Source of the DNA: Verrucomicrobiota bacterium
Lineage (GTDB): Bacteria > Verrucomicrobiota > Verrucomicrobiia > Limisphaerales > UBA8199
Length of the DNA stretch: 42,610 nt
Direction: 5' to 3'
NCBI GenBank assembly: GCA_003176045.1
Contig: PSRM01000360.1
Span: 1-42,610, forward strand
Part shown: piece after piece, positions 11,645-39,056 of the stretch
Numbering within the stretch: position 1 is the first letter of the stretch
How the letters are laid out: the number at the start of each line of letters is the position of its first letter
The notes under the pieces: generated by a model
The model's database searches: none
Told to the model about the DNA's origin: nothing
What the model saw: the letters and a program-made list of their open reading frames with translations, nothing else
Translations under genes and position numbers: made by a program

Positions 11645-11768
11645 GAAACACCAAACACCAAACACCAGAGAAGCTCCAAACACCAAATCTCAGGGCGCTC
11701 CGGTGCAGCGATTTGGTGTTTGAAGCTTGGTGTTTCTTTGGTGTTTGGTGTTTGGTGTTTGGTGTTTG
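11645..11768. repeat. Heptamer-arm hairpin, CAAACAC type (H1)
   Basis: The left arm 11645-11690 is built of CAAACAC units and the right arm 11711-11768 of the complement GTGTTTG, with a 20-base loop. Each arm has an off-phase break (AGAGAAG on the left, TTTCTTT on the right). It is flanked by a degraded GACGACG...GGAGTACC segment at 11612-11636 and by the 26-base arm at 11786-11811, as if nested within another hairpin. The gap 11586-11850 holds no gene. Confidence 0.85.
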
Positions 11769-15199: not shown

Positions 15200-15402
15200 C
15201 GCAAACACCAGCGCGGCCGCAAACACCAAACACCAAACACCAACCACCAAGCTGCGCAAACACCAAACATCAAACACCAAGCTCCAAACACCAAGTCGGA
15301 CCAGCCGTGAGGTCCTTGAAGGTTGGTGTTTGAAGTTTCTTTGGTGTTTGGTGCTTGGTGTTTGATGTTTAGGCCCTGCCTTGTGTTTGGTGTTTGGTGT
15401 TT
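15200..15402. repeat. Heptamer-arm hairpin, CAAACAC type (H2)
   Basis: The left arm 15200-15296 is made of CAAACAC, CAAACAT and CAAGCTC units, and the right arm 15318-15402 of their complements; the loop contains GGACCAGCCGTGAGGTCC. An off-phase TTTCTTT occurs in the right arm (15336-15342). It occupies the whole gap between the regulator and the aminotransferase, so it would be the 5' leader of the aminotransferase if the two are co-transcribed. Confidence 0.85.
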
Positions 15403-15424
15403 CCGAGTCACTTGAGTGGATCGC

Positions 15425-20092: not shown

Positions 20093-20391
20093 TCATAACT
20101 GGACCCTCGAACGCCGCGTGAGGGCACGCGGCCCACAGAAGCGATAATTGCCTGACCTTGGAGGCCGGGTCCCACGACCCGGCGAACTTGTGCATAATTG
20201 GACCCTCGAACGTCGCGTGAGGGCACGCGGCCTACAGGAGCGATAATTGGCGAACCCTGTAGGCCGGGTCCCCCGACCCGGCGAACTGGTGCATAATTGG
20301 ACCCTCGAACGCCGCGTGAGGGCACGCGGCCTACAGAAGCGATAATTGGCTGACGTTGTAGGCCGGGTCCCCTGACCCGGCGAACTGGTGC
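20093..20391. repeat. 99-bp tandem repeat, three copies
   Basis: Units begin at about 20094, 20193 and 20292, marked by CATAAYTGGACCCTCGAACG, exactly 99 bases apart and highly similar. Each unit contains two hairpins: CCTCGAACGCCGCGTGAGG with CACGCGGCC, and GGCCGGGTCCCCTGACCCGG. No spacers are present, so it is not a CRISPR. It lies between the ECF sigma gene and the small downstream gene, so it would be transcribed as three double-hairpin units. Confidence 0.92.
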
Positions 20392-22699: not shown

Positions 22700-22930
22700 T
22701 TCGCTTTACGATTTACGATTTACGATTTGCGCGGTTCTCGTGGATACGATGACGAGAGGCTGTTGGCACCGAGTTTAGATTAGGATTAAGAGAAAGATTA
22801 AGATTAAGAACACCCTGCGCTCTGGCCTCTGATTTCTGACTTCTGACTCTGTTTCGCCCCTCGCCCCTACTCTCTTTACCGTCCGCACTTCCGGCGTTTG
22901 ACTTTGGACTTTGGACTTTGGACTTTGGTC
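22700..22930. repeat. Cluster of four different short-period arrays
   Basis: Within the 407-bp gap 22594-23000 lie ATTTACG x3 (22708-22730), a GATTAAG/AGATTA array (22774-22808), TTCTGAC x3 (22827-22849) and TTTGGAC x4 (22893-22928). Most have a 7-base period. Read on the other strand, the last is CAAAGTC, the unit also found inside the sucB linker, and TTCTGAC rotates to AGAAGTC, one base from CGAAGTC. No gene is present. Confidence 0.8.
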
Positions 22931-22954
22931 TCTCTCGCCTTGGTGGGTAATCCA

Positions 22955-23701: not shown

Positions 23702-25171
23702 CTACACTTCGATCAACATCCGCGCAGGGTCTTCGATGTTTTCTTTTACGCGTTTCAGGAACGACACCGCTTCGCGGCCATCTACGATGCGGTGATCGTA
23801 GGTCAGGGCGACGTACATCATCGGGCGGATCACCACGGCGCCATCGCGGGCAACTGGGCGCTCCTGAGTGGCGTGCAGGCCAAGGACGCCGCTTTGGGGC
23901 GGGTTGACGATGGGTGTGGAAAGCAGTGATCCATACACTCCGCCGTTGCTGATCGTGAACGTGCCTCCCTGCAATTCCTCTACCTTGAGTTTGTTTTCCT
24001 GGGCCCGCGCTGCGAAATCACCGATGGCAACTTCGATTTCGGCGAAGCTCATGCGCTCAGCATTGCGCAAAACGGGAACCACCAGCCCTTTGCCACTGCC
24101 GATGGCGATGCCAATGTCAAAGAAGTTGTGATAGATGATATCGGTGTCGCGAACCTCGGCATTGAGCACCGGGAATTGTTTGAGCGCGTCAATGGCCGCT
24201 TTGACGAAGAAGGACATGAGGCCGAGCTTCACGTTGTATTTCTGCCGAAAAGCCTCGCCATGCTGCTTGCGGAGCGTCACCACAGCGCCCATGTCAACCT
24301 CGTTGAAAGTCGTCAACAGGGCTCTGGTGCGCTGGGCTTCTACCAGACGCTCGGCGATGGTGCGGCGGAGCCGCGTCATGGGCACCACTTCTTCTTGACG
24401 CGATTCTGGATGCTGGAAGCCGGACGCTGGCTGGTCGCCAGCGGATGATGGATGATGGATGATGGATGGTGGATCATGTCGAGCGGATGCTGGATCCTGG
24501 ATACTGGATGCAGGCCGCAGGTTGGGCGAATTCGCAGCCTCAGCTTCATCAGCAGGCGCTTGCTCTTGTAGCCGATTTCTCTTTTCGGAGACGGTGGGAC
24601 TGGACGCTTGCGCTGAGGGCCGACTTTCTGGTTGCTCTTTTGGACTTTGCGCTTCTGGTTTTTGACTTTGGGCTTCCGATTTCGGGCTTGCGCCGTCGGG
24701 CTGCGGACTTGGGTCTTCGGGTTTTAGACTTTGGACTTTGGACTTCTTGTGCTCCGAAGCCTTGGCGGAGGAGGATGGACTTTGGACTTCGGATTGGGCC
24801 TCTGGCTGTGGACTTTCGGCTTGCGTTTTCCGAGCTTGGTCTTCGGACTTCGGACTTCGAATTTCGGGTTTCGCGCTTCGGCCTTCCGACTTTGGACTTT
24901 GGACTTTGGACTTTGGACTTTCTTTGGGCTTCGGACTTTCTTCCACGTATCCAATGACTTCACCCACTTTCGCCGTCTGGCCTTTGTCTTTTAGGATCTG
25001 TCCGATCGTGCCGGATTCGGGGGCGGGCAGTTCGACGGTCGCCTTTTCACTTTCGATTGTGACAACCGATTCGTCTTTTTCGACCTGGTCACCCTGATGT
25101 TTGAGCCAATCGCCGATTTCGACTTCGGTGATGGATTCACCGACTTCCGGGACTTTGAGTTCGAGTGACAT
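23702..25171 (-). CDS. sucB: 2-oxoglutarate dehydrogenase E2, dihydrolipoyl succinyltransferase
   Basis: A 489-residue E2 core enzyme that transfers the succinyl group from E1-bound ThDP via lipoyl-lysine to CoA. The lipoyl domain spans 1-77, with Lys43 in the ESEKATVE motif. The catalytic domain spans about 256-489, with the His460/Asp464 motif in YDHRIVDG. Between them lie about 180 residues of Pro/Ser/Lys/Gln-rich linker made of 7-residue cycles (SPKSKVQ-like, then PASxxxHP-like) coded by heptamer DNA arrays. The peripheral subunit-binding domain normally found there (an SPxVRxLAxE...GTGxxGRI pattern) is not visible, so docking of E3 and E1 must differ or be weak. It follows sucA by 107 bases and is surely in its operon. 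No E3 gene is in the window. Confidence 0.93.
   Translation of the reverse strand: MSLELKVPEVGESITEVEIGDWLKHQGDQVEKDESVVTIESEKATVELPAPESGTIGQILKDKGQTAKVGEVIGYVEESPKPKESPKSKVQSPKSEGRSAKPEIRSPKSEDQARKTQAESPQPEAQSEVQSPSSSAKASEHKKSKVQSLKPEDPSPQPDGASPKSEAQSQKPEAQSPKEQPESRPSAQASSPTVSEKRNRLQEQAPADEAEAANSPNLRPASSIQDPASARHDPPSIIHHPSSAGDQPASGFQHPESRQEEVVPMTRLRRTIAERLVEAQRTRALLTTFNEVDMGAVVTLRKQHGEAFRQKYNVKLGLMSFFVKAAIDALKQFPVLNAEVRDTDIIYHNFFDIGIAIGSGKGLVVPVLRNAERMSFAEIEVAIGDFAARAQENKLKVEELQGGTFTISNGGVYGSLLSTPIVNPPQSGVLGLHATQERPVARDGAVVIRPMMYVALTYDHRIVDGREAVSFLKRVKENIEDPARMLIEV
24406..24940 (-). repeat. Heptamer arrays forming the E2 linker
   Basis: This coding region of sucB contains CAAAGTC and CGAAGTC arrays (about 24650-24940) and ATCCAGC/ATCCATC-type arrays (about 24419-24510). 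Translated, they give SPKSKVQ and IQHPASS-type cycles. The same units occur in non-coding DNA at 22893-22928, 23442-23471 and 40612-40654. Both strands are open across much of the array, so antisense reading frames here are artefacts. Confidence 0.85.
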
Positions 25172-25280: not shown

Positions 25281-28200
25281 AACTTCCACCGAAAGCTCGC
25301 GCGATCAACTCGGTTTGTTCCTGCTTATGGCGGCTGTGGGAACCTACGGCGGGTGATCCAGCGGCTGGGCGGGAGATGCAGGAAAAGGGAAACCGATCAA
25401 AGAGCCGTTCGCCAAAGTGGACTCTAAGAAATCGCCAGGCGCCCATGTTCTCTGGTTCTTCCTGTACCCAGAATGTAGGCGTTCCTTCCGGGTAGGAGGC
25501 CAGAATTGCTTCAAGCATCTCATGAGGCAAGGGATAGAGTTGTTCCAGGCGGATGATTGCGAGGTCCTCGCGCCTGGTTTCTTCGCGGTGCGCAGCCAGC
25601 TCGTAGTAGATCTTGCCGGCGCAGAGGAGGATGCGGCGGACGGACGGCGAAGCATTTGGAGTGCGCTCCCGATCCATCGGGAGCGCTTTTCCCGGCTCCG
25701 GTGATGCGAAAGCGCTCCCGCTGAATCGGGAGCGCACTCCAAAACGCTCCGCGTGATCCGGGAGCACTCGCTGAAAGATCCCCTCGGCGCAATCCTGCAG
25801 CGATGATACCACTCTGGGATGCCGGAGCAAGCTTTTGGGGGTGAGAACCACCAGCGGCTTGCGCCATGAAACGAGCATCTGTCGGCGAAGGCAATGGAAG
25901 TACTGAGCGGGCGTAGTGGGATATACCACCTGAATGTTATCGCCGGCCGCCAGTTCAAGAAACCGCTCGAGGCGCGCGCTGGAATGTTCGGGCCCCTGCC
26001 CTTCGAACCCGTGCGGCAACAAGAGCACAAGGCCGCTCAGTCGCTGCCATTTCTCTTCCGCACTGGCAATGAACTGATCCATGATCGGCTGGGCCACATT
26101 GAAGAAGTCCCCGTATTGCGCCTCCCACAAGACCAGCGCGTCAGGATAATCCAGGCTATAGCCATACTCAAAACCGAGCACGCCGGTCTCGGAAAGCGGA
26201 CTGTTCAGGATTTCGACTGGCGCTTGGTTCGGCGCCAAATGTTGCAGGGGAATCCAGGTATGCCCGTCTTCGTGCTCGTGCAACACCGCGTGGCGTTGGC
26301 TGAATGTGCCACGCTCACTATCCTGGCCGCTCAGCCGGATTCGAAATCCTTCGCAGGCCAAACTGGCCAAAGCCAAGATCTCGGCCGCGGTCCAATTCAG
26401 CGGTTCCTCCCCGTGCGCCATTTTCTGAATCATCTGCGCCAGTTTTTGGATTTTTGGATGCGGATGAAAATCCGCCGGTAACCACGTCGTCAGTTCCAAC
26501 CAGTTCGCGAGTTGGGGAACGGAGAGGGTCGAAGGCCGGGGGTCGAGGTAAACAGAGCCGCGACCTTGAGAGAGCGCCCCGGCCGCTACATTTTCACTCG
26601 TGCCGCCACCGCCCTCGCCCCCCGACCCTCGCCTCTCCTCCCTCTCCAACCCTCCGCGGTATTTGGCCCAGATACCGCGAAGCTGCTCCGAACTATCGCG
26701 CGGCTGCTTACCTCCGGGACTTTGGACTTTGGACTTTGGACTGTGGACTTCTGTCCGACTTTGGACTTCTTCTAGCTCCTTCTCAAGCGCCTCACGCCGT
26801 CGCTCCGCAATGGCCTCGGCCTCTTCGCGCGTCACCTCACCGAGCTTCAGCAAATGCTCGAGATATCCTGCACGAACCGACTTGCGCCCTGCGATGGCTC
26901 GATAAAGGACCGGTTGCGTGAAGGAAGGTTCATCTCCTTCATTATGACCCAGGCGCCGGTAGCCGTACATGACGATTACGACATCGCGCTTGAACTCCCA
27001 ACGGAAATCCATCGCCAAACGCACCACCTGCGCCACGGCTTCGGGATCTTCGCCGTTCACGTGGAAGATCGGAATTTGCAGCATGCGAGCGATATCGCTG
27101 GCATTGGGGCTGGAACGGGCCTGCTCGGGGCCGGTGGTAAAACCGATCTGGTTGTTGAGGATCACATGAAGGGTGCCGCCGGTCGTGTAACCGCTCAGTT
27201 GGCTCAAGTTCAATGTCTCCTGGACCACGCCCTGGCCAGGAAACGAAGCGTCGCCGTGAATCAGCAAAGTCATGCCCCGGCGCCGCTCGCGGTCTCCTGC
27301 CCGGTCCTGTTTGGCGCGCGTGCGGCCCAGGGCCACCGCATTGACAAATTCGAGATGGCTTGGATTGAAGCAAAGCGAGAGATGAATCTTTTTGCCATCA
27401 GAGTTTACCCAGTCTGTGCTATAGCCCAGATGATATTTCACATCGCCATGGGCGGGGGAGGACCGCCAGTCAATATCGGCAAATTCCCGGAAGATTAGAC
27501 GCGGGCTTTTGCCCATGATGTTGGCCAGCACGTTGAGGCGGCCACGATGCGCCATGCCCAGCACAATCTCCTGGATCCCCTGCCCTATCGCTTTTTCGAT
27601 CGCCAGGTCCAGGAGCGGGATCAGGCTCTCAGAGCCTTCGAGCGAAAAACTTTTCGCGCCGATGAATTTCTTGCGGATGAACTCCTCGAACGTGACGGCA
27701 TCGGTCAGGCGCGTGAGAATCCGTAGTTGCGCCTCCCGGCTGAGAAGAAGCCGATTTTCGGTCGGCTCCATCCGCCCTTGAAGCCATCGGCGCACGTTCA
27801 GCTCGTCAATGTGCATGTACTGCACACCAATCGAGCGGCAGTAGGTATTGCGCAATTGTTCGAGCAACTGGCCAAGTGTCAGTGAACCTTCTCCGTGTTG
27901 AAAAGTTTCGCTATGCACTGGCAGATTCATATCCGCCTCGGAGAACCCGAGGAATTCCGGCTTCAACTCGGGAGGCATCGGCGGCTGGATACCAAGCGGG
28001 TCCACTTGGGCGATGCGGTGGCCACGCACGCGATAAAGCCGAATGAGCATGTAAACCCGGTCTTGCTTCACCTGCTCCGAGCAATCGTCACGCCTTTCTG
28101 ATACGCCGGGCGGATTGAATACTGAAAATGACCGGAACGAAGGTCCGAACCGCGGAGGCTGAGGCTTTTGACCGTCGCCAGATTCCGAGAAGAAGCTACG

Positions 28201-28464: not shown

Positions 28465-29424
28465 ATGACCGAAGGACCAATGATCGAGGTGGCTAACCTC
28501 ACGAAACGATTCGCCGGGCGCACTGCGATATCGAATGTGTCCTTTGAGGTTAAACGGGGGGAAATAGTCGGCTTGCTCGGCCCCAATGGGGCGGGTAAGA
28601 GCACGACCATGAGGATCCTGGCATGTTACCTGCCCGCCAGCTCGGGAATGGTGCATGTAGCAGGGCTGGATGTCTTTCGGGATTCAGTCGAGGTGCGCCG
28701 GCGCATCGGTTATATGCCTGAAAACAATCCGCTGCACCCGGATATGCGGGTGCGGGAATATCTAAAATTCCGTGCGCGGCTCAAGGGGTTGCGCCGCAGG
28801 ACGTCCCGGGAACGCGTGGACACGGTGATGGAGCAGTGCGGGCTGACGGAGGTTGGAAAACGGATCATCGGACAGCTTTCCAAAGGTTTTCGACAACGGG
28901 TTGGCCTTGCGGACGCATTGGTGCACGAGCCGGAATTGCTGATTTTAGATGAACCCACCATTGGGTTGGACCCGAACCAAATCCGTGCCGTGCGCCAGCT
29001 TATCAAGGGCCTGGCCAATTCGCATACCGTCCTGGTTTCCACGCATATCCTTCCTGAGGCCGAAATGACGTGCAATCGGTTCGTGCTTTTGTATGAAGGC
29101 AGGATCCAGGCCGCCGATACTCCAGATGGCCTTCAGCGGCTCATGAGCGGGCATAGCCAGGTGATTGCCGAAATTGCCGCGCCGCAGGCTGATTTGGAGG
29201 AATGTTGGATGCAGATGGGCGAGATCGAACATTTCGACATCTCGCCGGCGCAGGGCGATTACTTCCGGTGCGCGCTGACGCCGCGCGATGGACTGGATTT
29301 GCGGCCGCTGATTTTTGAGCTGGCGCGCAGCCGCGGCTGGATCTTGCGCGAACTGACGCGCAACCGCCATTCGCTGGAGGATATTTTCGTGCAGCTCACC
29401 AAACCGGAGAGCGAAGAAGAATAA
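28465..29424 (+). CDS. ABC transporter ATP-binding protein (GldA-like)
   Basis: A 319-residue ABC ATPase: Walker A GPNGAGKST, Q-loop region YMPENNPL, signature LSKGFRQRVGLADAL, Walker B LLILDEP and switch His in STHILPEAE. A C-terminal extension (about 220-319) follows, as in GldA/NatA-type export ATPases. It would energise the ABC-2 permease coded downstream. It is the first gene of a run permease, GldG-like, DUF4340, AsmA-like. The frame opens at a TTG (28447). ATG 28465 and ATG 28480 are both possible; the latter has a GAAGGA only three bases upstream, too close to be decisive. The divergent sucA gene starts 148 bases away. Confidence 0.93.
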   Translation: MTEGPMIEVANLTKRFAGRTAISNVSFEVKRGEIVGLLGPNGAGKSTTMRILACYLPASSGMVHVAGLDVFRDSVEVRRRIGYMPENNPLHPDMRVREYLKFRARLKGLRRRTSRERVDTVMEQCGLTEVGKRIIGQLSKGFRQRVGLADALVHEPELLILDEPTIGLDPNQIRAVRQLIKGLANSHTVLVSTHILPEAEMTCNRFVLLYEGRIQAADTPDGLQRLMSGHSQVIAEIAAPQADLEECWMQMGEIEHFDISPAQGDYFRCALTPRDGLDLRPLIFELARSRGWILRELTRNRHSLEDIFVQLTKPESEEE

Positions 29425-29681
29425 TCAAACATCAAACACCAAACACCAAGCTCCAAGGAAACACAAATTCCAAACACCAAACCCGCTCGATCTCGCTGAT
29501 GAATAGTAAGTCGAATACGTCTCTCTTACCCCTGCCCTTTCCCACCGGAAAAGAGGTAATTCCGGGCAGCGTCTCTGCCATAGATCGTTCATGGACTCAT
29601 TTGATGGCCGGGCGCGCGAAACGGTGTTGGAGTTTGGTGTTTGAGATTTCTCTGGTGTTTGATGTTTGGTGTTTGGTGTTT
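29425..29681. repeat. Heptamer-arm inverted arrays, CAAACAC type (H3)
   Basis: The left array 29425-29482 (CAAACAC/CAAACAT, with an off-phase GGAAACA) and the right array 29625-29681 (GTGTTTG, with an off-phase TTTCTCT) are opposed. About 140 bases separate them, including TTACCCCTGCCCTTTCCCAC...GGCAGCGTCTC, with no convincing gene. This fills the ATPase-permease gap. Confidence 0.8.
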
Positions 29682-29713
29682 CCTCTCTTTGGTCACATCT
29701 CGAAACCACAGTG

Positions 29714-30466
29714 ATGCGAGCCTATTGGACATTAACATGGAGGGAGTTAGGCGCATACTTCCTGTCTCTGACGGGGTATATCATCATTGCCGCGAGCCTG
29801 TTTCTGACGGGGCTCTCATTTATTGATTTGTTGGATCGGCTGCGCGGCGAGGCCATGCCAGCGCCGCTGACGGAGATCTATTTCAATACATGGTGGTTCC
29901 CGATGATCGTGGTGCTGGCCACGCCGGTCATTACGATGCGGCTGTTTGCGCAGGAAAAGTTCTCAGGCACCTTCGAGACACTGATGACTACGCCGGTGAG
30001 CGACCTGCAGGTGGTGCTGGCGAAGTTCAGCGCGGCGCTGGTCTTTTATATAGTGCTATGGTTGCCGCTCGTCGGTTGCGTGCTCCTGGTAAGACACTAT
30101 TCCAATGATCAGAGCGCCTTCGACAGCGGCATCATGGGCAGCACATTCCTTGGCATTATTCTGCTGGGCGGGTTGCTCGTCTCGCTAGGCTGCTGCGCCT
30201 CGGCGCTGACCCGCAGCCAGGTGGCTGCGGCGATGATGGGGCTGGCTTTTGGGTTCAGTGTGCTCCTCCTGGGCTTTCTTGCAGACAAGACAGCAACCCA
30301 TGCCAGTTGGCAGGCCCAGGTGCTGGCCTGTTTCGCGATTTTCGAGCAGATGCGCGATTTTGCGCGAGGGATGGTGGATACGCAGGCGGTGGTGTTGATG
30401 GTGAGCCTCACATTGTTTTTCCTATTTGTAAACCTGCGCATCATCGAGAGCCGGCGGTGGAAATAG
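29714..30466 (+). CDS. ABC-2 type permease (GldF-like)
   Basis: A 250-residue integral membrane protein with six hydrophobic segments. Examples are YFLSLTGYIIIAASLFLTGL, WWFPMIVVLATPVITMRLFA, FSAALVFYIVLWLPLVGCVL and VVLMVSLTLFFLFVNLRI. The motif FAQEKFSGTFETLMTTPVSD after the second segment is typical of ABC-2 permeases of the GldF/NosY group. It would form the membrane channel with the ATPase upstream. The frame continues upstream through the CAAACAC array, so ATG 29714 (MRAYWTLTW) is chosen. In Bacteroidota the GldA/F/G set is tied to gliding, but in other phyla the cargo is unknown. Confidence 0.9.
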   Translation: MRAYWTLTWRELGAYFLSLTGYIIIAASLFLTGLSFIDLLDRLRGEAMPAPLTEIYFNTWWFPMIVVLATPVITMRLFAQEKFSGTFETLMTTPVSDLQVVLAKFSAALVFYIVLWLPLVGCVLLVRHYSNDQSAFDSGIMGSTFLGIILLGGLLVSLGCCASALTRSQVAAAMMGLAFGFSVLLLGFLADKTATHASWQAQVLACFAIFEQMRDFARGMVDTQAVVLMVSLTLFFLFVNLRIIESRRWK

Positions 30467-30491
30467 AACTGATTTAAATGGAACACCACGT

Positions 30492-30620
30492 GCAAACACC
30501 AAACACCAAACACCAAACATCACAGAAACACCAAGCTCCAAGCTCCAAAAGCCGTTCGTTGCTTTTGAGATTTGGTGTTTGGAGCTTTTTTGGAGCTTGG
30601 TGTTTGATGTTTGGTGTTTG
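30492..30620. repeat. Heptamer-arm hairpin, CAAACAC type (H4)
   Basis: The left arm 30492-30550 (CAAACAC x4, off-phase CAGAAAC, then CAAGCTC units) and the right arm 30562-30620 (TTTGGTG/TTGGAGC, off-phase TTTTTT) are separated by an 11-base loop, GCCGTTCGTTG. Almost the whole 192-bp gap could fold into one hairpin in the transcript. Confidence 0.88.
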
Positions 30621-30658
30621 CTTGTGGGTTATTGGTGCCGCGATTCGTGCTTAGTGCT

Positions 30659-32131
30659 ATGGCCGCTGACCCTTTACCCAAGCCCAGCTTCTCCATGGGC
30701 CGCAAATGGGGTATCGCGCTAAAGACGGGCCTGGTGCTGCTGGTGCTGCTATCTGTGGTGGTGATGGTCAACTACATCAGCCGCGATTACCACACGCGGT
30801 TTCACCTGAGCACCCGCACGCAAATCGAGTTGTCGCCCCGGACCGTTGGCTTTCTTAAATCTCTGACCAACCAGGTCCGCGTAACGCTCTACTACGACCA
30901 AAGAGACGAGTTCTACAGCACAATGGCCGATCTGCTCAAAGAATATTGGAAGGTGAATCCCCGTATTACGATTGACACGGTTGATTACCTTAGGAATCCC
31001 GGCGCAGCGCAAAGCGCAAAGGAGGCTTACAAGCTCAATTCGGTGACGGATACTAATTTGATTATCTTTGATTGCGGCGGCCGGATTCGGCCCGTCCCAG
31101 GCACCGGATTGGTCCATTGCACATTGGAGCTGATTCGAGATGAAGAAGGAGTGGAGCGGGCGCGGCGTAAACCGCTGGCATTTCTTGGCGAGTCGGCCTT
31201 CACCTCGGCGCTCATTGAAGTGACCAGCCCAAAAAAACCCGTCGTTTGCTTCCTGCAAGGCCCGGATTTCACGCATTCGATCACCAGCGCCGACGAGTTG
31301 ACCGGTTATTTCAAATTCGCCGCCCTGGCGCAGGAAAGCGGCGCGGAGGTGATGCAGGTCTTTTTGGCCGGCACTAATACTATGCCGCCGGAGTGCAATC
31401 TGCTGATTGTCCCGGGGCCCAGATCGGCACTCAGCACAAACGAACTCAGTCAGATTGACAACTACCTTGCTCAAGGAAGCCGGCTGATGGTCCTCTTCAA
31501 TTCAGGCACCAGGACCAGGGACACGGGGCTGGAAGAAATCCTTACTAAATGGGGGGTGGAGGTCGGGCACAATGCACTGGGCGATACAAGAAACAGCCCC
31601 TCGGGCTCGACGAACGACCTTGTTATCGCCGGTTTCAGCATGCACTCGGTCGTCAACCCGGTGCTTGATGAGTACCTATACATGATGAGGCCGCGAAGCA
31701 TCGCGCAGATAGGATTACGGACGCCGCCTGCCGATGCGCCGAAGGTTGAAGAAATCGCATACACCGAACCGCTCGGGAACATGGCGCGCATAGATAGGCG
31801 TTATCCCGTGATGGTCGCGGTCGAGAAAGGAACGCTCCCAGGCGGCGTCAGCGAACGCGGCACAACACGCATTTTGGTAGCGGGCGACTCCTACTTTCTG
31901 GCAAATCATCAATTGGATGATTATGGCAACCGTGACTTTGCGTGGTCGGCACTTAGCTGGCTGCTTGGCCGCGCGCAGATGATTGATGGGATTGGTCCCC
32001 GGCCGGTTCTGGAATACAGACTGATAATGACCGCGGCCCAGATGGAAGGCGCGGAATGGCTGCTGCTCGGCGGGTTGCCGGGAGGGACGCTGCTGCTGGG
32101 GGGCTTGGTGTGGCTGAGGAGAAGAAGATAA
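30659..32131 (+). CDS. GldG-like ABC transporter auxiliary protein
   Basis: A 490-residue membrane-anchored protein of the GldG/ABC_transp_aux family. One N-terminal membrane segment (LKTGLVLLVLLSVVVMVNYI) is followed by the conserved family start (RTQIELSPRTVGFLKSLT, then VRVTLYYDQRDEF). A large exported or periplasmic domain follows with the glutamine-amidotransferase-like middle seen in this family (CNLLIVPGPRSALSTNEL, QGSRLMVLFNSG). A second membrane segment and an Arg tail (LGGLVWLRRRR) end the protein. It works with the ATPase and permease. ATG 30659 (MAADPLPK) is chosen because upstream codons lie in the heptamer array. Confidence 0.88.
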   Translation: MAADPLPKPSFSMGRKWGIALKTGLVLLVLLSVVVMVNYISRDYHTRFHLSTRTQIELSPRTVGFLKSLTNQVRVTLYYDQRDEFYSTMADLLKEYWKVNPRITIDTVDYLRNPGAAQSAKEAYKLNSVTDTNLIIFDCGGRIRPVPGTGLVHCTLELIRDEEGVERARRKPLAFLGESAFTSALIEVTSPKKPVVCFLQGPDFTHSITSADELTGYFKFAALAQESGAEVMQVFLAGTNTMPPECNLLIVPGPRSALSTNELSQIDNYLAQGSRLMVLFNSGTRTRDTGLEEILTKWGVEVGHNALGDTRNSPSGSTNDLVIAGFSMHSVVNPVLDEYLYMMRPRSIAQIGLRTPPADAPKVEEIAYTEPLGNMARIDRRYPVMVAVEKGTLPGGVSERGTTRILVAGDSYFLANHQLDDYGNRDFAWSALSWLLGRAQMIDGIGPRPVLEYRLIMTAAQMEGAEWLLLGGLPGGTLLLGGLVWLRRRR

Positions 32132-32133
32132 TT

Positions 32134-32266
32134 TGAAACTTCAAACTCCAAACTCCAAACTTCAAGGAAACTTCAATCTTCAAACTTCAAGGCGTCCTGT
32201 CAGCGGAGTTTGGAGCTTGGAATTTGAGGTTTATTTGAATTTTGACGTTTGGAGTTTGAAGTTTTT
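32134..32266. repeat. Heptamer-arm hairpin, CAAACTT/CAAACTC type (H5)
   Basis: The left arm 32134-32191 (AAACTTC and AAACTCC units, with off-phase AAGGAAAC in the middle) and the right arm 32204-32266 (complements, with off-phase TTTATTTG) surround a 12-base loop. The plan is the same as in H4, but the 7-base word has changed by one or two bases. Confidence 0.88.
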
Positions 32267-32281
32267 AGCGGGCCACGTCAA

Positions 32282-34072
32282 ATGAATTCTAAGCTCCTCT
32301 GCTTCTGGCTATTCGTCGCCGCCGGACTGCTGGCGTTCATCGTTTTCTACCAGATTCCGGCCCATAAAAGACTTCCGCCTGAATGCCGGATATTGCCTCA
32401 ACTCAAGTCGCAGGAGGTCACGGCGATCCAGATCACGCTCAAAGGCCAGGAGCCGATTCATATTGAGCGGACCAACGGAACGTGGCGAATCATTAAACCT
32501 GAAGCGCTGGCCCAGTCTGCGAAGGTGGAGAAGCTTTTGACGGTGTTGGCGCAACTCAGACCAGCGGCGCACATTCGCGACAATGAAGTCAAGAATCCCT
32601 TCGGAATTGATCAGGAATTCGGGTTCGCTGATCCGGCCGTAACGATGATCATGGAAGGCAAAGACCGAACCAGGCTTGCGATCGGGGCAAAAACCGCGCC
32701 CGGTAATCAGATCTTTCTGCAAGTGGTGGGGGAACAGGACGGCACATTCATAGTAGATGCCGATCTTTTGAAACTGATTCCGCGGGAAGCCAACGATTGG
32801 CGTGAGACCAAGTTCGTAAATATCAAGGAGTTGGCGATTGAGCGGATCGGAGTCACTAATGCGGGGCGGGCTTTCGTGCTGCAGCGCGAGCCGACAATAC
32901 AGCTTTGGCGTTTGGCGGTGGCAGGCGGCAATGATTGGTGGCGCGCCTATAATTCACGGATTGAGGAGGCGCTCCAAGGGTTGGACCGGCTGGAGGCGCG
33001 CCGGTTCGTGTCCGATGATCCTAAGGCCGACCTGGAAGCCATGGGCCTGCAAAATCCGGAGCTTCAAGTCGGACTGGGCCAGGGCACAAACATAGCTCTG
33101 GTGCTGCAGTTCGGGAAAAGTCCAACAAACGATCCGCAACAAGTCTATGCCCGGCGGTCAGATCAGGCTGCAATCGTGACCGTGGCCGCTGAGTTGGTAG
33201 CGCCGTGGCGTGACTCGATTGACAATTTCCGCGATCCGCACCTGCTGGTGCCAACGGGACCGGTGGCGGAGATTGAAGTGCATGGCGAAGACGACTTCGC
33301 CGTGAAGCACCAGACCAATGATACCTGGCAGGTGGTGCCGAAATCCGGCGCCTCCTTTCAGGCCGACGCGGAGCTGGTAAAGAAAATGCTGGCCGATCTG
33401 AGCAACTTGCAAGTCGTGGGCCTTGAGCGACTTAATGTCACGGATCCGGACATGCCTAAGTATGGATTGGCGACCCCTCGGCGCAGTTATACCGTAAGGT
33501 CTGCTATAAGCGGAAATGAGCCAACAACGAACCAGATCGTGATAGGTGAGGTGAATTTCGGGACGAACGTCTTCGCGCGGCGGGCGGATGAACGATCTGT
33601 TTACACTATCAAAGTGGCGGATCTGGACCGGTTGCCGGTTGCAAGTTGGCAATTGCGGGCGCTGCGCCTATGGACTTTCACGCAAAACGATGTGCAGGGA
33701 GCCACCATTGAGCTTGAGGGCAAGAAACGGCAGATCACCCGCAAGGGACCCTACGAGTGGACGCTAAGCTTGGGCTCGCAAGGGGCCATCGAACCAATCC
33801 GGGTGGAGGAAACGGTGAGGGGACTGGTAGAAGCCTCGGCCACAAGCTGGATAGGCCGTGGCGAATCAAATCCGGCGCGTTTCGGTATCAGTGAGGCGAG
33901 CCTGGCGGTAACTCTCCAACTGAAAAACGGCACCAACATTTCGATCCAGTTCGGCAAGGAAGCGCCGTCCGCAAATCCGTACGCCGCCCTGACGCTGGAG
34001 GGGCAGACGTGGATCCTGGAATTCCCGTTTCCTGTGTTTCGGGACATCTTCAACTACCTGAGGCCAGGCTGA
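32282..34072 (+). CDS. DUF4340 domain protein
   Basis: A 596-residue protein with one N-terminal membrane anchor (LLCFWLFVAAGLLAFIVFYQ) and a long exported part made of repeated DUF4340-type beta-rich units. Each has patterns like VTAIQITLKGQEPIHIERTN, the TWRIIKP strand, and later FAVKHQTNDTWQVVPKSG and GATIELEGKKRQITRKGPYE. It is commonly coded after GldG in Verrucomicrobiota and other phyla, as here, and is thought to be part of the same transport or envelope machine; its exact role is unknown. ATG 32282 (MNSKLLCFW) directly precedes the anchor; the longer frame from 32249 reads repeat DNA. Confidence 0.88.
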   Translation: MNSKLLCFWLFVAAGLLAFIVFYQIPAHKRLPPECRILPQLKSQEVTAIQITLKGQEPIHIERTNGTWRIIKPEALAQSAKVEKLLTVLAQLRPAAHIRDNEVKNPFGIDQEFGFADPAVTMIMEGKDRTRLAIGAKTAPGNQIFLQVVGEQDGTFIVDADLLKLIPREANDWRETKFVNIKELAIERIGVTNAGRAFVLQREPTIQLWRLAVAGGNDWWRAYNSRIEEALQGLDRLEARRFVSDDPKADLEAMGLQNPELQVGLGQGTNIALVLQFGKSPTNDPQQVYARRSDQAAIVTVAAELVAPWRDSIDNFRDPHLLVPTGPVAEIEVHGEDDFAVKHQTNDTWQVVPKSGASFQADAELVKKMLADLSNLQVVGLERLNVTDPDMPKYGLATPRRSYTVRSAISGNEPTTNQIVIGEVNFGTNVFARRADERSVYTIKVADLDRLPVASWQLRALRLWTFTQNDVQGATIELEGKKRQITRKGPYEWTLSLGSQGAIEPIRVEETVRGLVEASATSWIGRGESNPARFGISEASLAVTLQLKNGTNISIQFGKEAPSANPYAALTLEGQTWILEFPFPVFRDIFNYLRPG

Positions 34073-34080
34073 TCTCGACA

Positions 34081-34379
34081 AAACTTCAAACTTCAAACCC
34101 CAAACTCCAAATAAACTTCGAAACTTCAAACTTCAGAGCATCCGGCGCAGTAAAATCGAAGCCGGGGCAACTTACCTGTGACGGACCTCCGCCCTGATCT
34201 CCTTAACATCCTGCTTCAGTGGTCTGTAAACCTACTGCAGGAGAAAATCTCTAACCGCTTAATTTTATCAGTTTTCGCACCGCCTAATCCATTGCAATGC
34301 ACCAACAGCTCGATAACGGGATTTGGAGCTTGAATTTTGAGGCTTCCTTGAAGTTTCGAGGTTTGAAGTTTGAAGTTTT
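34081..34379. repeat. Heptamer-arm inverted arrays, CAAACTT type (H6)
   Basis: The left array 34081-34136 (AAACTTC units, off-phase AAATAAAC) and the right array 34321-34379 (GTTTGAA units, off-phase TTCCTTG) are opposed across about 185 bases that hold no gene. The right array is followed at 34387-34415 by the GTGTTCATCCGTGTTGGTCC repeat, which ends one base before the ATG of the AsmA-like gene. Together they fill the 344-bp gap 34073-34416. Confidence 0.82.
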
Positions 34380-34416: not shown

Positions 34417-37400
34417 ATGACTGCTCCGCTTGCCAAAAAACGCAGCTTTTTGAAGCGCTGCCGGATTTATTTCCGGTGGATGCGTATCGCCCTTTGGATC
34501 GTGACTTTGCTGGTTCTGGGAGGGCTGATTTATTTGAATCAGGTGGGGCTGCCCGGTTTTCTAAAAAGACCGTTGCTGGACAGGTTGCACGCCAGGGGGG
34601 TTGATTTGCAGTTTTCCCGACTACGCTTGCGTTGGTATCAAGGTGTTGTTGCCGAGAACGTGCGCTTCGGGCAAGCCAATGAGCCCGACAGCCCTCAGCT
34701 AACCGCCGCACAGGTGCAGGTCCATCTCGACACGGCGTCATTGAAACGGCTTCGGCTGCAAGTGGACTCCCTGGGATTGAGGCAGGGCCGCATGGTTTGT
34801 CCGATTGACGAAAATGCCCAACGCTCCCGATATCTGACCATCACTAATATCTTCACCGAACTGCGTTTCCCCGCCGGCGACGAGTGGGCGCTGGATAACT
34901 TTAACGCAGCCTTTGTCGGCGCGACGTTCCATGTTTCCGGGATAATCCGCAACGCGTCGGCTATCCGGGAGTGGAAAGCCCTGGGCACGGCACAGCACGC
35001 TCCCGGCAAGCTGTGGCGCGAACGGATGCGAGAGGTGGCCGATTACCTCGAGCGAATTCATTTCGCGACCGCGCCCGATTTCACACTGGATGTGCGAGGG
35101 GACGCGCGGGACGTGCAGAGCTTCAAGGCCCGCCTGCGCATCACCGCGCCGGGGGCAGACACCCCCTGGGGCACTTTTACCGGCGGACGCTTTACGATTC
35201 GCGTCCTGCCTGGAGCCACCAACGAGCTTTCCAGGGCGGACTTAAGCCTCGAAGCCAATGACGCGCAAACGCCCTGGGGCTCGGTCACAAACCTGCACCT
35301 GACAGTCCATGCGACGTCATCCGAAGCCAAAACGGATGTGGTGGTTTGCGATCTCACTCTGACAGCCGGTCGAACGCGAACCGAATGGACCCAGGTTGCC
35401 GCCTTTAAACTTAATGCACATTGGATTCATTCCATGACGAATCCTGTGCCTCTCCGTGGCGATGGCATCCTCCAGTGTGAGGCAGCGACAACCCGATGGG
35501 GCGACGCGGCCACGGTACAGCTTTCCGCGACCGCGAACAGGCAGGAACCGCTCCCGACAAATCGCATGCCCGAAGTTCCATGGGCCTGGATGACGAATCT
35601 GGAGGATCTGGTCGTGCAAGGGGACTGTCAGCTAACCGGGGTCAGGGGCTTAACGAACCTGAGTGCTCCGCCAGCAATAAGACAAGTAAGTTGCCAGGCC
35701 TACTGGACCGCACCCGATCTAAAGTTGACGCATCTTCGGGCCATGCTGTCGGACCGGCCTGACAAACCCGAGCTACAAGCCAGCTTGGCCCTGAACCTGG
35801 CCTCCCGCCGCCTGAATGCCACGCTCGAGTCCCATGCCGATCCCGGTCATCTCGCGCCTTTATTGAAGCCCGGAACTCAACAGTGGCTCACGCAGTTTTC
35901 GTGGGTTGAGCCACCCGCTCTTAAGGCCCAAGCCTCGATTGTGATGCCGGCCTGGACCAACCGGCACCCCGATTGGCGCGCCGAGGTCCAACCCACACTC
36001 CAATTGGCGGGCGAATTCAACATGCCGCGCGGAGGCGCCTACCGCGGCGTGCAAATCAAAGCTGCCAGCTCGCAGTTCGCCTACTCGAATCTCACATGGC
36101 ATCTGCCCGACCTGACGGTCTGGCTTGGGGAAGGCCAGATTCGGGCCGAGCACATCGCCAACGAGCGCACGCGCGAGTTTTACTGGAACGTGGTCAGCAC
36201 GGTGTCCCCGGACGCAATCCGGCCTTTGCTGCACAGCAATCAACTACGCGTGTTGGATCTAGCCACCTTCACTGAGGCTCCGAACATCCAGGCGCAAGCC
36301 TGGGGCACATCCGATGATCCCGAACGCATCGGAGTAAGCGCCCATGTGGAGGCGACGAACTTCCTTTTCCGGGGCCAAGCCATTAGCGCCCTTCAAACCG
36401 ACGTAGCTTATACCAACCAAATCCTGCGCTTCACAGGACCGCGGATACAGCGAGCGAACAGCGAGCACGTGAGCGCGGATGGGCTGCTGGCCGACTTCCG
36501 GGCGCAGGCGGTCTATCTGACCAATGGAGTGAGCACCACGGACCCGCTCGCAATCGCCAGGGCCATCGGTCCAAAAGTCGGCCGGGCGATCGAGCCGTAT
36601 CGCTTCATCCAACCTCCTGCGGCTCACGTGTATGGAGTCATCCCGATGCGTGGTGAAGAACTGGCTGACCTGCACTTCGACCTCGATGGTGGGCCTTTTC
36701 AATGGACTAAATTCAAGCTGCCCCGCGTTGCCGGCCATCTCCACTGGCTGGGAGAAGAGCTGACGCTGACGAACATGGATCTGGACTTTTATGGAGGCCG
36801 CGGGCAAGGCCACGCGCGATTCGAATTCCAGCCGGGCGGCAGCGCAGGTTACAGTTTTGCCCTGGTCGCGACCAACGTTCAGTTGCAAGCGCTTATGTCC
36901 GCCTTGAGCACCAATGCCAGCAAGCTGGAGGGCAGCCTCCGCGGGACTCTGGTAATAACCAATGCAGACACCGCTGATACAAATCACATCTCGGGCTATG
37001 GATCTCTGGGTTTGCGTGACGGGCTGATCTGGGACATTCCTCTGTTCGGCATCCTCTCCCCTGTGCTCGACGGACTATTGCCCGGCCTGGGAAGCACGCG
37101 ATTCAATGCTGCAACATGCACTTTCAACATAAGCAACAGCGTTATTCATTCGGACGATTTAGAGATGCGTTCTCCAGCCTTGCGCCTGCGCTATCATGGA
37201 AATGTGGATTTTCAACAGAAAGTCAATGCCCGCGTGGAAGCCGAGTTACTGCGCGATATGTGGGGAGTAGGCCCGTTGGTAAGCGCCCTCTTTTTGCCCG
37301 TGACGAAGTTGTTTGAATACAAGGTCACAGGCACCCTGGCACAGCCGAAAAAGGAGCCGCTGGTGCCGGTGATTCCAAAGATCGTGCTGCTGCCGTTTCA

Positions 37401-37506
37401 ACTTCCTTTCCACCCTCTGCGCACGCTCAAAGACCTGCTGCCCCCCGGGGAACCAAGCCGCACGAATGCGCCGCCAACCGTTGGACCGAAACCACAAGGG
37501 CCTTAA
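34417..37506 (+). CDS. Large AsmA-like envelope protein
   Basis: A 1029-residue protein with a basic N-terminus, one membrane anchor (RIALWIVTLLVLGGLIYL, about 23-41) and a very long beta-rich exported domain. An AsmA-like C-terminal region is visible in LQALMSALSTNASKLEGSLR, GYGSLGLRDGLIWDIPLFGI, and FNISNSVIHSDDLEMRSPAL. AsmA/YhdP/TamB-type proteins form rod-like grooves that bridge the envelope and move lipids to the outer membrane; that role is inferred by family. It lies 344 bases after DUF4340 in the same direction and may belong to the same transcription unit. The ATG sits at the end of a repeat, with GTGGTTAA just before it. The tail is proline-rich (PPGEPSRTNAPPTVGPKPQG). Confidence 0.8.
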   Translation: MTAPLAKKRSFLKRCRIYFRWMRIALWIVTLLVLGGLIYLNQVGLPGFLKRPLLDRLHARGVDLQFSRLRLRWYQGVVAENVRFGQANEPDSPQLTAAQVQVHLDTASLKRLRLQVDSLGLRQGRMVCPIDENAQRSRYLTITNIFTELRFPAGDEWALDNFNAAFVGATFHVSGIIRNASAIREWKALGTAQHAPGKLWRERMREVADYLERIHFATAPDFTLDVRGDARDVQSFKARLRITAPGADTPWGTFTGGRFTIRVLPGATNELSRADLSLEANDAQTPWGSVTNLHLTVHATSSEAKTDVVVCDLTLTAGRTRTEWTQVAAFKLNAHWIHSMTNPVPLRGDGILQCEAATTRWGDAATVQLSATANRQEPLPTNRMPEVPWAWMTNLEDLVVQGDCQLTGVRGLTNLSAPPAIRQVSCQAYWTAPDLKLTHLRAMLSDRPDKPELQASLALNLASRRLNATLESHADPGHLAPLLKPGTQQWLTQFSWVEPPALKAQASIVMPAWTNRHPDWRAEVQPTLQLAGEFNMPRGGAYRGVQIKAASSQFAYSNLTWHLPDLTVWLGEGQIRAEHIANERTREFYWNVVSTVSPDAIRPLLHSNQLRVLDLATFTEAPNIQAQAWGTSDDPERIGVSAHVEATNFLFRGQAISALQTDVAYTNQILRFTGPRIQRANSEHVSADGLLADFRAQAVYLTNGVSTTDPLAIARAIGPKVGRAIEPYRFIQPPAAHVYGVIPMRGEELADLHFDLDGGPFQWTKFKLPRVAGHLHWLGEELTLTNMDLDFYGGRGQGHARFEFQPGGSAGYSFALVATNVQLQALMSALSTNASKLEGSLRGTLVITNADTADTNHISGYGSLGLRDGLIWDIPLFGILSPVLDGLLPGLGSTRFNAATCTFNISNSVIHSDDLEMRSPALRLRYHGNVDFQQKVNARVEAELLRDMWGVGPLVSALFLPVTKLFEYKVTGTLAQPKKEPLVPVIPKIVLLPFQLPFHPLRTLKDLLPPGEPSRTNAPPTVGPKPQGP

Positions 37507-37533
37507 CCGCAACTACTCAGGAGACGGAATCAC

Positions 37534-37570
37534 TGTTCTTTGTCCTCTGTCCTCTGTTCTCTGTTCTCTC
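37534..37570. repeat. CTCTGTC/CTCTGTT heptamer array
   Basis: Four or five units of CTCTGTC/CTCTGTT, with a TTTGTC start, lie in the 62-bp spacer between the convergent AsmA-like and peptidase genes. The array ends at the stop codon of the peptidase. Confidence 0.8.
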
Positions 37571-39056
37571 AGGACTTCGCCGCCGGCGCCTCCGGTTTGG
37601 TCTCCGCAGCCTCCAACTCCTTCTTCGTGGCTGTCCGCCATTCTTCATCCAGTTCCTGAAGCTTTTTCCCGGTGATGTCTTGCCACAGATCGTCCGTGTA
37701 TTTCCCTTGCCGGCAAGCGGCGTTCACTTTCGTGATCAGTTCTTTCTTCGGATCGTAATGGTTCACCACATAATCCAGGAAATTAGCCGTCACCCGATAC
37801 CGCGCATCATATTTTAATTCGGTGTTCCTGCGTCCCTTCAGCCACACGACATCAGCCCCGTGGCTCTGGGGCTCATAAAGAAACCATCGGATGTAATCGG
37901 GGATGCCTTCGACCAGCCATCCGGGTGGCCGCTTGAAATCAGGATTGCGGCGCCCGCCCCGATACTGCTGAACCACGTGAACTTCTTCGTGGATGATAGC
38001 CCCCACAGCTTCCCGCTTGAGTTCGCGCTCCAGCCAGTTGGAGTTGGCGGTTACCCGAGTCCCGCCCGTGGCCGCCACACCTCGGCCGGGAGCCAATGTA
38101 ACAGTGAACCGTTTTGGGGCTTCATAGCCCTCGCTGGCCAGCATCGCCGTTATTTTCGGATACCACGCCGCCAGCGCAGGACCCAGTTTGGTCTCGACCC
38201 ATTCTTTCAGGTTTGGGGCCTGGGAACTGTCTATTGAGATTTCGCAATAGCCATCGGTGGATCGTATGGTGAAAGGAGGAGAGTCAGGCCGGTCAGACCC
38301 GTCGGGCCGCTCCGACGAGTCCGCAACCGTGCCCGCACCGTCCTTCGCAATCACATCAAGCTCGCTGTAAAACGTGTTCCCGAAAGGATCATCTGCTTCC
38401 GTACGAGACATATCGAAGAGCAGGTAGCGATACTTGCCGATGGTCCCGTTGGAGTCGCGGATGCTCACGCCATATTGCCCGCCGGGTTCAAGCGGTCTGG
38501 GAGAACCTTCTTCTTTGCGGGTGTCAACGGACGCGATGAGTTTCCAGCCGGATTTCTCCGGGTCCGAACCATCTTCGGGTTTAAGGTTGAGCTTCACTTC
38601 GTTGGTCGCGCCACCGGAGCTTTCAGCCGCGCCTGCATAGAGCTTATACAACTGCGGTCCTCGGGTGGTGGGATGCCACGAATACGTGTTCACCTGCTGG
38701 ATCTCAATTTGCTTGCCTAAATCCACCAGCAGCCTCCCTCCTCCCGTGCCCGCGTCGAAAAAGAAATTCTCACCAGGCTGATCCGATTCAATCGGGAGTC
38801 CGCCATCGTGTAGCTTCTCCAAGCCGCCTCCGCTTTCGTCCCGGGTTCCAGCAATGGTGCGGAATTTGGCGTGGGTAGCAGCGTCTGTTTTCGACGGAGC
38901 GGGCACGCGCATAAACTTGAACCCCGCCGCCGCATGTTCATTGTCATTGTGGTCAACGATCACCTTGAGTTCGGCAGAGGAGGTTAACGAGCCGCCGAAG
39001 CTAAGAAGTAGAGAAATAAGAATGAAGCCGCCAGGAGTTCGAAAGCTTGGATTCAT
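37569..39056 (-). CDS. Secreted basic-secretory-protein-type metallopeptidase
   Basis: A 495-residue exported protein. A signal peptide (FILISLLLSFGGSLTSSAE) is followed by an N-terminal part resembling a discoidin/F5-8-type carbohydrate- or surface-binding domain (LVDLGKQIEIQQVNTYSWHP). The second half fits the plant basic secretory protein family. It has a zinc-binding HExxH motif (His356-Glu-Glu-Val-His360 in IIHEEVHVVQQYRG), then GWLVEGIPDYIRWFLYEP and FLDYVVNHYDPK. It is predicted to be a secreted zinc peptidase. The C-terminus is low-complexity (ELEAAETKPEAPAAKS). It is divergent to the O-methyltransferase, 109 bases away. Confidence 0.85.
   Translation of the reverse strand: MNPSFRTPGGFILISLLLSFGGSLTSSAELKVIVDHNDNEHAAAGFKFMRVPAPSKTDAATHAKFRTIAGTRDESGGGLEKLHDGGLPIESDQPGENFFFDAGTGGGRLLVDLGKQIEIQQVNTYSWHPTTRGPQLYKLYAGAAESSGGATNEVKLNLKPEDGSDPEKSGWKLIASVDTRKEEGSPRPLEPGGQYGVSIRDSNGTIGKYRYLLFDMSRTEADDPFGNTFYSELDVIAKDGAGTVADSSERPDGSDRPDSPPFTIRSTDGYCEISIDSSQAPNLKEWVETKLGPALAAWYPKITAMLASEGYEAPKRFTVTLAPGRGVAATGGTRVTANSNWLERELKREAVGAIIHEEVHVVQQYRGGRRNPDFKRPPGWLVEGIPDYIRWFLYEPQSHGADVVWLKGRRNTELKYDARYRVTANFLDYVVNHYDPKKELITKVNAACRQGKYTDDLWQDITGKKLQELDEEWRTATKKELEAAETKPEAPAAKS

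Follow-up and report, generated by a model that had tools for sequence, protein, structure and literature searches.

Asymmetric palindromic repeats built of CAA heptads lie between the genes of an ABC/Gld-like operon in a Limisphaerales bacterium

The window analysed here is a stretch of 42,610 bases (contig C142 of a draft genome of 7.74 Mb in 372 contigs) from a Verrucomicrobiota bacterium, placed in the order Limisphaerales (Verrucomicrobia subdivision 3) by its best protein relatives, and in it a run of ABC transporter and Gld-like genes carries a long array of 7-nt words in each of its four gaps. How did such arrays come to lie between these genes, and what might they do there? A first-pass annotation had seen two opposed arms in every gap, each split by an off-phase break, and had proposed a selected or replicating hairpin unit, possibly with a role in mRNA stability or processing. 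We found that the gaps hold an asymmetric palindromic repeat of fixed size, with sharp ends and dispersed copies, that has been inserted into operon junctions. Our preferred interpretation, to which we assign a probability of about 0.6, is that these elements are copies of a non-autonomous mobile palindromic repeat, 126 or 129 bp in length.

Direct reading of the gaps was complemented by whole-genome pattern searches and by 121 sampled stretches of the genome, together about 2.04 Mb; a few of these overlap, and part of the sample was picked for containing matches. Genes were called with a simple codon-usage caller. Opposed heptad arms were borne out in all four gaps (elements H3 to H6) and at two further places in the window (H1 and H2). 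The canonical form is represented by H4 (30494..30619), which is exactly 126 bp long. Its left outer block on the plus strand, AAACAC(CAAACAC)2 CAAACAT, occupies 30494..30520 with a sharp end at 30494, and is followed on the same strand by the left break (30521..30531), an 11-mer, CACAGAAACAC, composed of a 4-nt linker and the first heptad of the inner block. The 22-nt core lies at 30546-30567.

A search based on the pair of breaks only yielded 42 two-arm elements in the sample. It should be noted that the search pattern itself dictated some of the letters in the break, as well as the CA of the first inner heptad; it placed no constraint on outer heptads 2-3, on the second inner heptad, or on core and ends. 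All 42 elements have a common plan of four heptads, CARR, four heptads, a centre and the mirror image, which can be written [N]AANNNY(CAANNNY)3 - CARR - [G]AANNNY(CAANNNY)2 CAANNNN - 8 or 11 nt centre - mirror image. The outer block consists of four heptads in 65/84 arms, and arms were parsed as two blocks of four joined by CARR in 79/134 cases. The first position of outer heptads 1-3 is C in 98-99% of arms, compared with only 49% for the fourth heptad; this outermost heptad retains AAACAC, and the position of a fifth heptad is at background, which together define a sharp end (AAACAC...GTGTTT). Four outer heptads and a sharp end give a unit of 126 bp with a 22-nt core, or 129 bp with a 25-nt core. 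The distance from break to break is 72-77 nt in 31/42 elements, with peaks at 72 (12 elements) and 75 (11 elements), so that the breaks are not placed at random relative to the loop. Two parts of the earlier description had to be revised: the array is not open-ended, given the fixed outer block, and the purine-rich breaks on the left and pyrimidine-rich breaks on the right are a single feature, the CARR linker, read as CAGAGAAAC on one strand and GTTTCTCTG on the other. The break of H3, H4 and H5 is not quite canonical on one or both arms.

Period-7 arrays abound in this genome: an identical scan counted 228 of them per Mb, whereas periods 6, 8 and 9 gave 18-31, and some forty words are represented. 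This abundance is in keeping with plain slippage of 7-nt microsatellites, in which the opposed arm would be produced by template switching. However, other heptad words are seldom two-armed. An inverted partner within 250 bp was present on the predicted side of 36/48 arrays of the CAAAC family and on the opposite side of none of the 48, compared with 19/262 and 4/262, respectively, for all other heptad words; word clusters were ordered '+-' in 26/54 cases and '-+' in none of 54. Opposed arms are thus enriched over single arms, as the first-pass annotation required, and among the heptad words of this genome a two-armed layout is regular for the CAAAC words alone, although CGTGAAA arrays show a weaker tendency (6/25). 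Slippage also predicts neither the fixed four-heptad arms, the sharp ends and the fixed linker and spacing nor the heritable difference between arms described below. We regard it as a very improbable explanation of the elements, and as the origin of the whole unit it is refuted by the fixed architecture and heritable asymmetry; it may have added heptads at some ends, where arms reach 5-12 heptads. Other tandem 7-nt words of the genome (GGACTTT, CGTGAAA, GAACCTT, GACCACT and GACAGAG) are mostly single-armed and mostly intergenic, and stretches of such words occur in the window at 22878-22945, 24425-24943, 26707-26769 and 37520-37582.

The two arms of an element differ from each other in a consistent manner. 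The arms of one element resembled each other less than arms taken from different elements did, both in the breaks (identity 0.75 versus 0.82, p<0.001) and in the inner heptads (0.64 versus 0.70, p<0.001), and this is because the arms carry a heritable asymmetry. The linker heptad ends in GAAGCTC on one arm and in GAAACAC on the other, in one order in 12 elements and in the reverse order in 11, and no element has two GAAGCTC arms. A model of arm asymmetry, with orientation fitted on the arms alone, scored -839, compared with -880 +/- 6 for randomly paired arms. The 22-nt cores, which had seemed unique, share a profile of about GGCCNCGAACGGCT (-167 versus -207 +/- 4 for shuffles), and the direction of the core agrees with the direction derived from the arms (p=0.0015). 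The consistent arm difference, together with a core that points the same way, indicates that the copies descend from one asymmetric ancestor. Exact copies of cores were not found elsewhere in the sample, where one core is doubled by overlapping stretches.

The five genes of the operon are all encoded on the plus strand: an ABC transporter ATPase (PF00005, 28480..29424), an ABC-2 family permease (PF12698/PF12730, 29714..30466), a GldG-like ABC_transp_aux protein (PF09822, 30659..32131), a DUF4340 protein (PF14238, 32282..34072) and a YhdP-like protein (PF13116, just over the cut-off, 34417..37506). H3 (29427..29681), with a centre expanded by about 125 nt, separates the stop codon of the ATPase gene at 29424 from the permease start at 29714, and H4 lies between the permease and ABC_transp_aux genes. 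H5 (32136..32264) has the canonical length of exactly 129 bp and separates the ABC_transp_aux gene from the DUF4340 gene, whilst H6 (34081..34378), in which the centre is long at about 165 nt, lies between the DUF4340 and YhdP-like genes. Outside the operon, H1 (11645..11767) has a 25-nt core and only three heptads in its left outer block, and H2 (about 15220..15403) is rearranged and has extra arm pieces; both are of the CAAACAC type.

The junctions were compared across relatives of the first operon gene, 80 in total, with 63-80 contributing to each junction. The median distances between genes are -1, 1, 4 and -5 nt in the relatives and 289, 192, 150 and 344 nt in the window, and the junctions measure 40 nt or less in 75/80, 75/77, 66/70 and 60/63 relatives, in gene order. 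The closed first junction typically reads ..GAGGAGG..TGATGC, with the stop overlapping the start, and the TGATGC of this closed form is retained ahead of the permease start. Since the genes abut or overlap in relatives that are free of the element, the element is an insertion. A Pedosphaera stretch carries an independent CAAACAC element directly after the stop codon of the ATPase gene, and at these junctions four other stretches (L130, L137, L145 and L166) contain hairpins whose heptad arms use different words (CGAACCT, CAACATT, CGAAATC). The closed junctions, the exceptions with heptad hairpins and the persisting TGATGC show that the gaps were opened by repeated insertion. The selected or replicating unit of the earlier annotation is therefore supported by the dispersed copies and by their insertion where relatives have closed junctions, in addition to the fixed size and ends, the shared asymmetric arms and the shared core of the 22-nt class. 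Heptad hairpins that lack a linker were observed at operon junctions of other Limisphaerales (L166 11698-11853, L130 10952-11095, and L145 13369-13498 and 11707-11838), together with one long near-perfect palindrome, and possibly represent separate element families.

Could the elements nevertheless be a selected RNA device, kept in operon gaps because it makes the preceding cistron more stable in the mRNA, offers RNase III or RNase E a cleavage site, or uncouples translation? When each gap was folded as RNA and compared with 200 dinucleotide shuffles, all four folded far better than the shuffles (z=-6.3 for H3, -9.1 for H4, -7.9 for H5 and -5.1 for H6; 0/200 shuffles as good in each case), and these strong folds favour such a device, as does the finding that the arms are far better conserved than the cores. 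The setting is also suggestive: 34/39 elements lie between codirectional genes, three between convergent and two between divergent genes (background 837/1205, or 69%, p=0.009), and the edge of the element is within 60 nt of a stop codon in 33/34. However, unrelated single heptad arrays show a codirectional bias as well (125/151), and the asymmetric element is oriented at random with respect to transcription (14 sense and 20 antisense, p=0.39), which counts against a strand-specific RNA role and fits mobile DNA.

The details of pairing also speak against an RNA device. Positions 1-3 (CAA) of the inner heptads show a divergence of 0-0.02, compared with 0.24-0.47 for positions 4-7, and these four variable positions are frequently mispaired in the folded inner stem. 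The inner heptads of an element's own arms have 7.8 mismatches, compared with 6.2 when arms are paired at random (p<0.001); own arms more mispaired than chance pairing show that the property being conserved is not pairing within the inner stem. Compensatory changes were found neither in the stem, where own arms match less well than random arms, nor in the core, where covariation was looked for and additional base pairing was rejected. No Rfam family reached its gathering score, with only microRNA families appearing below threshold, as any long hairpin would give, and the gaps contain no intrinsic terminator in the form of a G+C-rich hairpin followed by a T run. Conservation rests more on a sequence code than on base pairing, which would favour a protein that reads DNA over an RNA fold. 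The proposed role in mRNA stability or processing thus gained no support from orientation or from terminator-like sites, and whilst some role in the mRNA is possible, we consider a selected RNA device unlikely. Two other accounts of the mismatches were set aside. Selection against perfect palindromes was dropped in favour of descent from an asymmetric ancestor, which also accounts for the direction of the core; and loss of perfect palindromes during assembly was rejected because the mismatches between own arms stay higher when near-perfect cross pairs are removed.

A conserved code raises the question of who reads it. The plan pattern, comprising an outer heptad, the linker heptad and an inner heptad, has 168 matches in this genome, and was present in 45/320 genomes and 20/118 genera of Limisphaerales but in only 1/387 other sampled genomes of the phylum; a reversed-pattern control gave one match. 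The favoured outer word changes with lineage, from CAAACAC here to CAAGCTC, CAAATCC, CAAGTTC and CAAGCGC elsewhere, whilst the initial CAA of the heptads is almost invariant, and the four-heptad outer block recurs in 14/16 parsed arms from other genera. Within the operon itself, H3 and H4 use CAAACAC, and H5 and H6 use CAAACTT or CAAACTC. The observation that the words differ and the plan is kept therefore holds well beyond the four gaps, over about 20 genera. One explanation would be protein-binding or chromosome-architecture sites: a host DNA-binding protein would recognize four-blocks of CAA triplets spaced at 7 bp, and copies would be kept as its sites regardless of how they arose. The four-block is a 32-bp module of about three helical turns, with CAA invariant, the other four positions free, and block number and linker fixed, and both the independence of orientation and the turnover of words across genera with CAA kept would fit such sites. 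Host sites, however, should be common to close relatives, and the motif is patchy, being absent from the twelve other genomes of the same family; an arm-binding transposase would account for the same pattern. We therefore find host binding sites quite improbable.

Several observations weigh against a mobile element. Beyond the absence from these twelve genomes, no target-site duplication was detected at either approximate or exact ends, and no transposase was found between the arms or beside the elements. Five Y1 transposase genes lack arms nearby, and no autonomous relative with matching ends was found in the sampled 2.04 Mb of the 7.74-Mb draft. The 25-nt class of cores has no detectable consensus or profile, which confines the demonstration of common descent to part of the family, and the closed-junction comparisons were drawn from other genera and families. 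The only arm pair spanning 420-4000 bp (L056, 1947-2670) has arms 667 bp apart with a called open reading frame of 384 nt between them, and is the only candidate for a gene-carrying element.

The Y1 genes bear on a more specific possibility, a REPIN-type element moved by a RAYT (a Y1 HUH transposase). The imperfect hairpin, intergenic location and absence of target-site duplication are shared with REPINs, and the genome has five Y1_Tnp matches, four of them over the cut-off, but no element lies near any of the five. Furthermore, there is no GTAG or CGTC foot tag, and the arms are far longer than REPs. We judge this the least probable of the explanations, and the present genome refutes it, barring an arm-flanked RAYT in the unsampled or unassembled part.

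Taking a mobile, non-autonomous repeat as the preferred reading, we propose that copies are moved as a unit, in trans, by a recombinase encoded by the host or by an element, which would read the CAA/TTG triplets that recur every 7 nt in the arms, either as double-stranded DNA or as a folded single strand. Insertion would occur without target-site duplication. Copies would persist where they are least harmful, just after stop codons and between co-transcribed genes, and would be carried in the mRNA as long imperfect hairpins. Homogenization among copies could drive the turnover of words within a lineage, with CAA remaining constant.

Four arms (L049 5953, L258 9443, L281 10108 and L287 7683) have three blocks, in which a CAAACAC four-block and linker surround a complete CAAACTT-type arm, which suggests that one element type is nested within another. 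In addition, opposed words of about 10 nt (CACGGATGAA / ATTCGTGTCC) flank the outside of many of the 42 elements with the same polarity as the element: CACGGAT/CACGAAT occurs on 13 left flanks and no right flank, and ATTCGTG/ATCCGTG on three left and 15 right flanks (for example L262 1560-1760, and 34382-34416 of the window). On a bolder and rather unlikely reading, the repeats form a novel type of mobile palindrome whose targets are the centres of hairpins, related copies among them, so that concentric shells build up, from the 10-mer words (CACGGAT../..ATCCGTG) through CAAACAC blocks and CAAACTT blocks to the inner block; a tetrameric or four-repeat protein would read the CARR-joined four-blocks of CAA heptads on folded DNA. 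Elsewhere in the window, a G+C-rich unit of 99 bp occurs in three head-to-tail copies (20094-20391).

Our literature search, which had most subscription papers outside its reach, returned no description of such repeats in Verrucomicrobia. As far as we found, an interspersed palindrome family with a rigid modular code of four heptads, a 4-nt linker and four heptads, mirrored, is new to Limisphaerales. Because the words vary by lineage whilst CAA and the spacing are constant, the family offers a system for asking which protein reads the code, and also how dispersed copies retain one word. The opened operon junctions offer a natural experiment on whether it matters that the ABC/Gld-like genes are translationally coupled.

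Amongst known systems, the STRR of cyanobacteria are further heptameric intergenic repeats that we take to be comparable. The TAACTGA heptameric direct repeats likewise consist of 7-nt units in intergenic DNA (PMC4679880). Such repeats are mostly direct arrays, in contrast to the fixed two-arm unit with linker and defined ends described here. Bacterial miniature inverted-repeat transposable elements such as Correia/NEMIS and RUP are 100-200 bp long, with terminal inverted repeats, sharp ends and many intergenic copies (PMC2229807); the present element is similarly short (<200 bp), non-coding and dispersed, with terminal inverted repeats and sharp ends, but differs from them in lacking a target-site duplication, and no parent insertion sequence with matching ends was found for it in the sampled part of the genome. 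REP (repetitive extragenic palindromic) sequences and REPINs with their RAYTs also have a short, variable spacer flanked by two inverted arms, form hairpins with conserved mismatches and spread as a unit (PMC3116915, PMC8266576), whereas our element ends in AAACAC...GTGTTT, has a heptad arm of about 60 nt, and is not linked to a Y1 transposase gene flanked by copies. The ERIC, IRU or RU-1 elements of enterobacteria, whose mechanism of movement is unknown, are dispersed, hairpin-forming intergenic inverted repeats of ~127 bp that are transcribed with their neighbours (PMC2229807). ERIC elements have TA termini and target-site duplications (PMC2229807), and the repeat of this other phylum is set apart by its AAAC...GTTT termini without such duplication and by arms of four-CAA-heptad blocks. 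It thus works like ERIC and REPIN elements, but lacks defining features of both and is a member of neither family.

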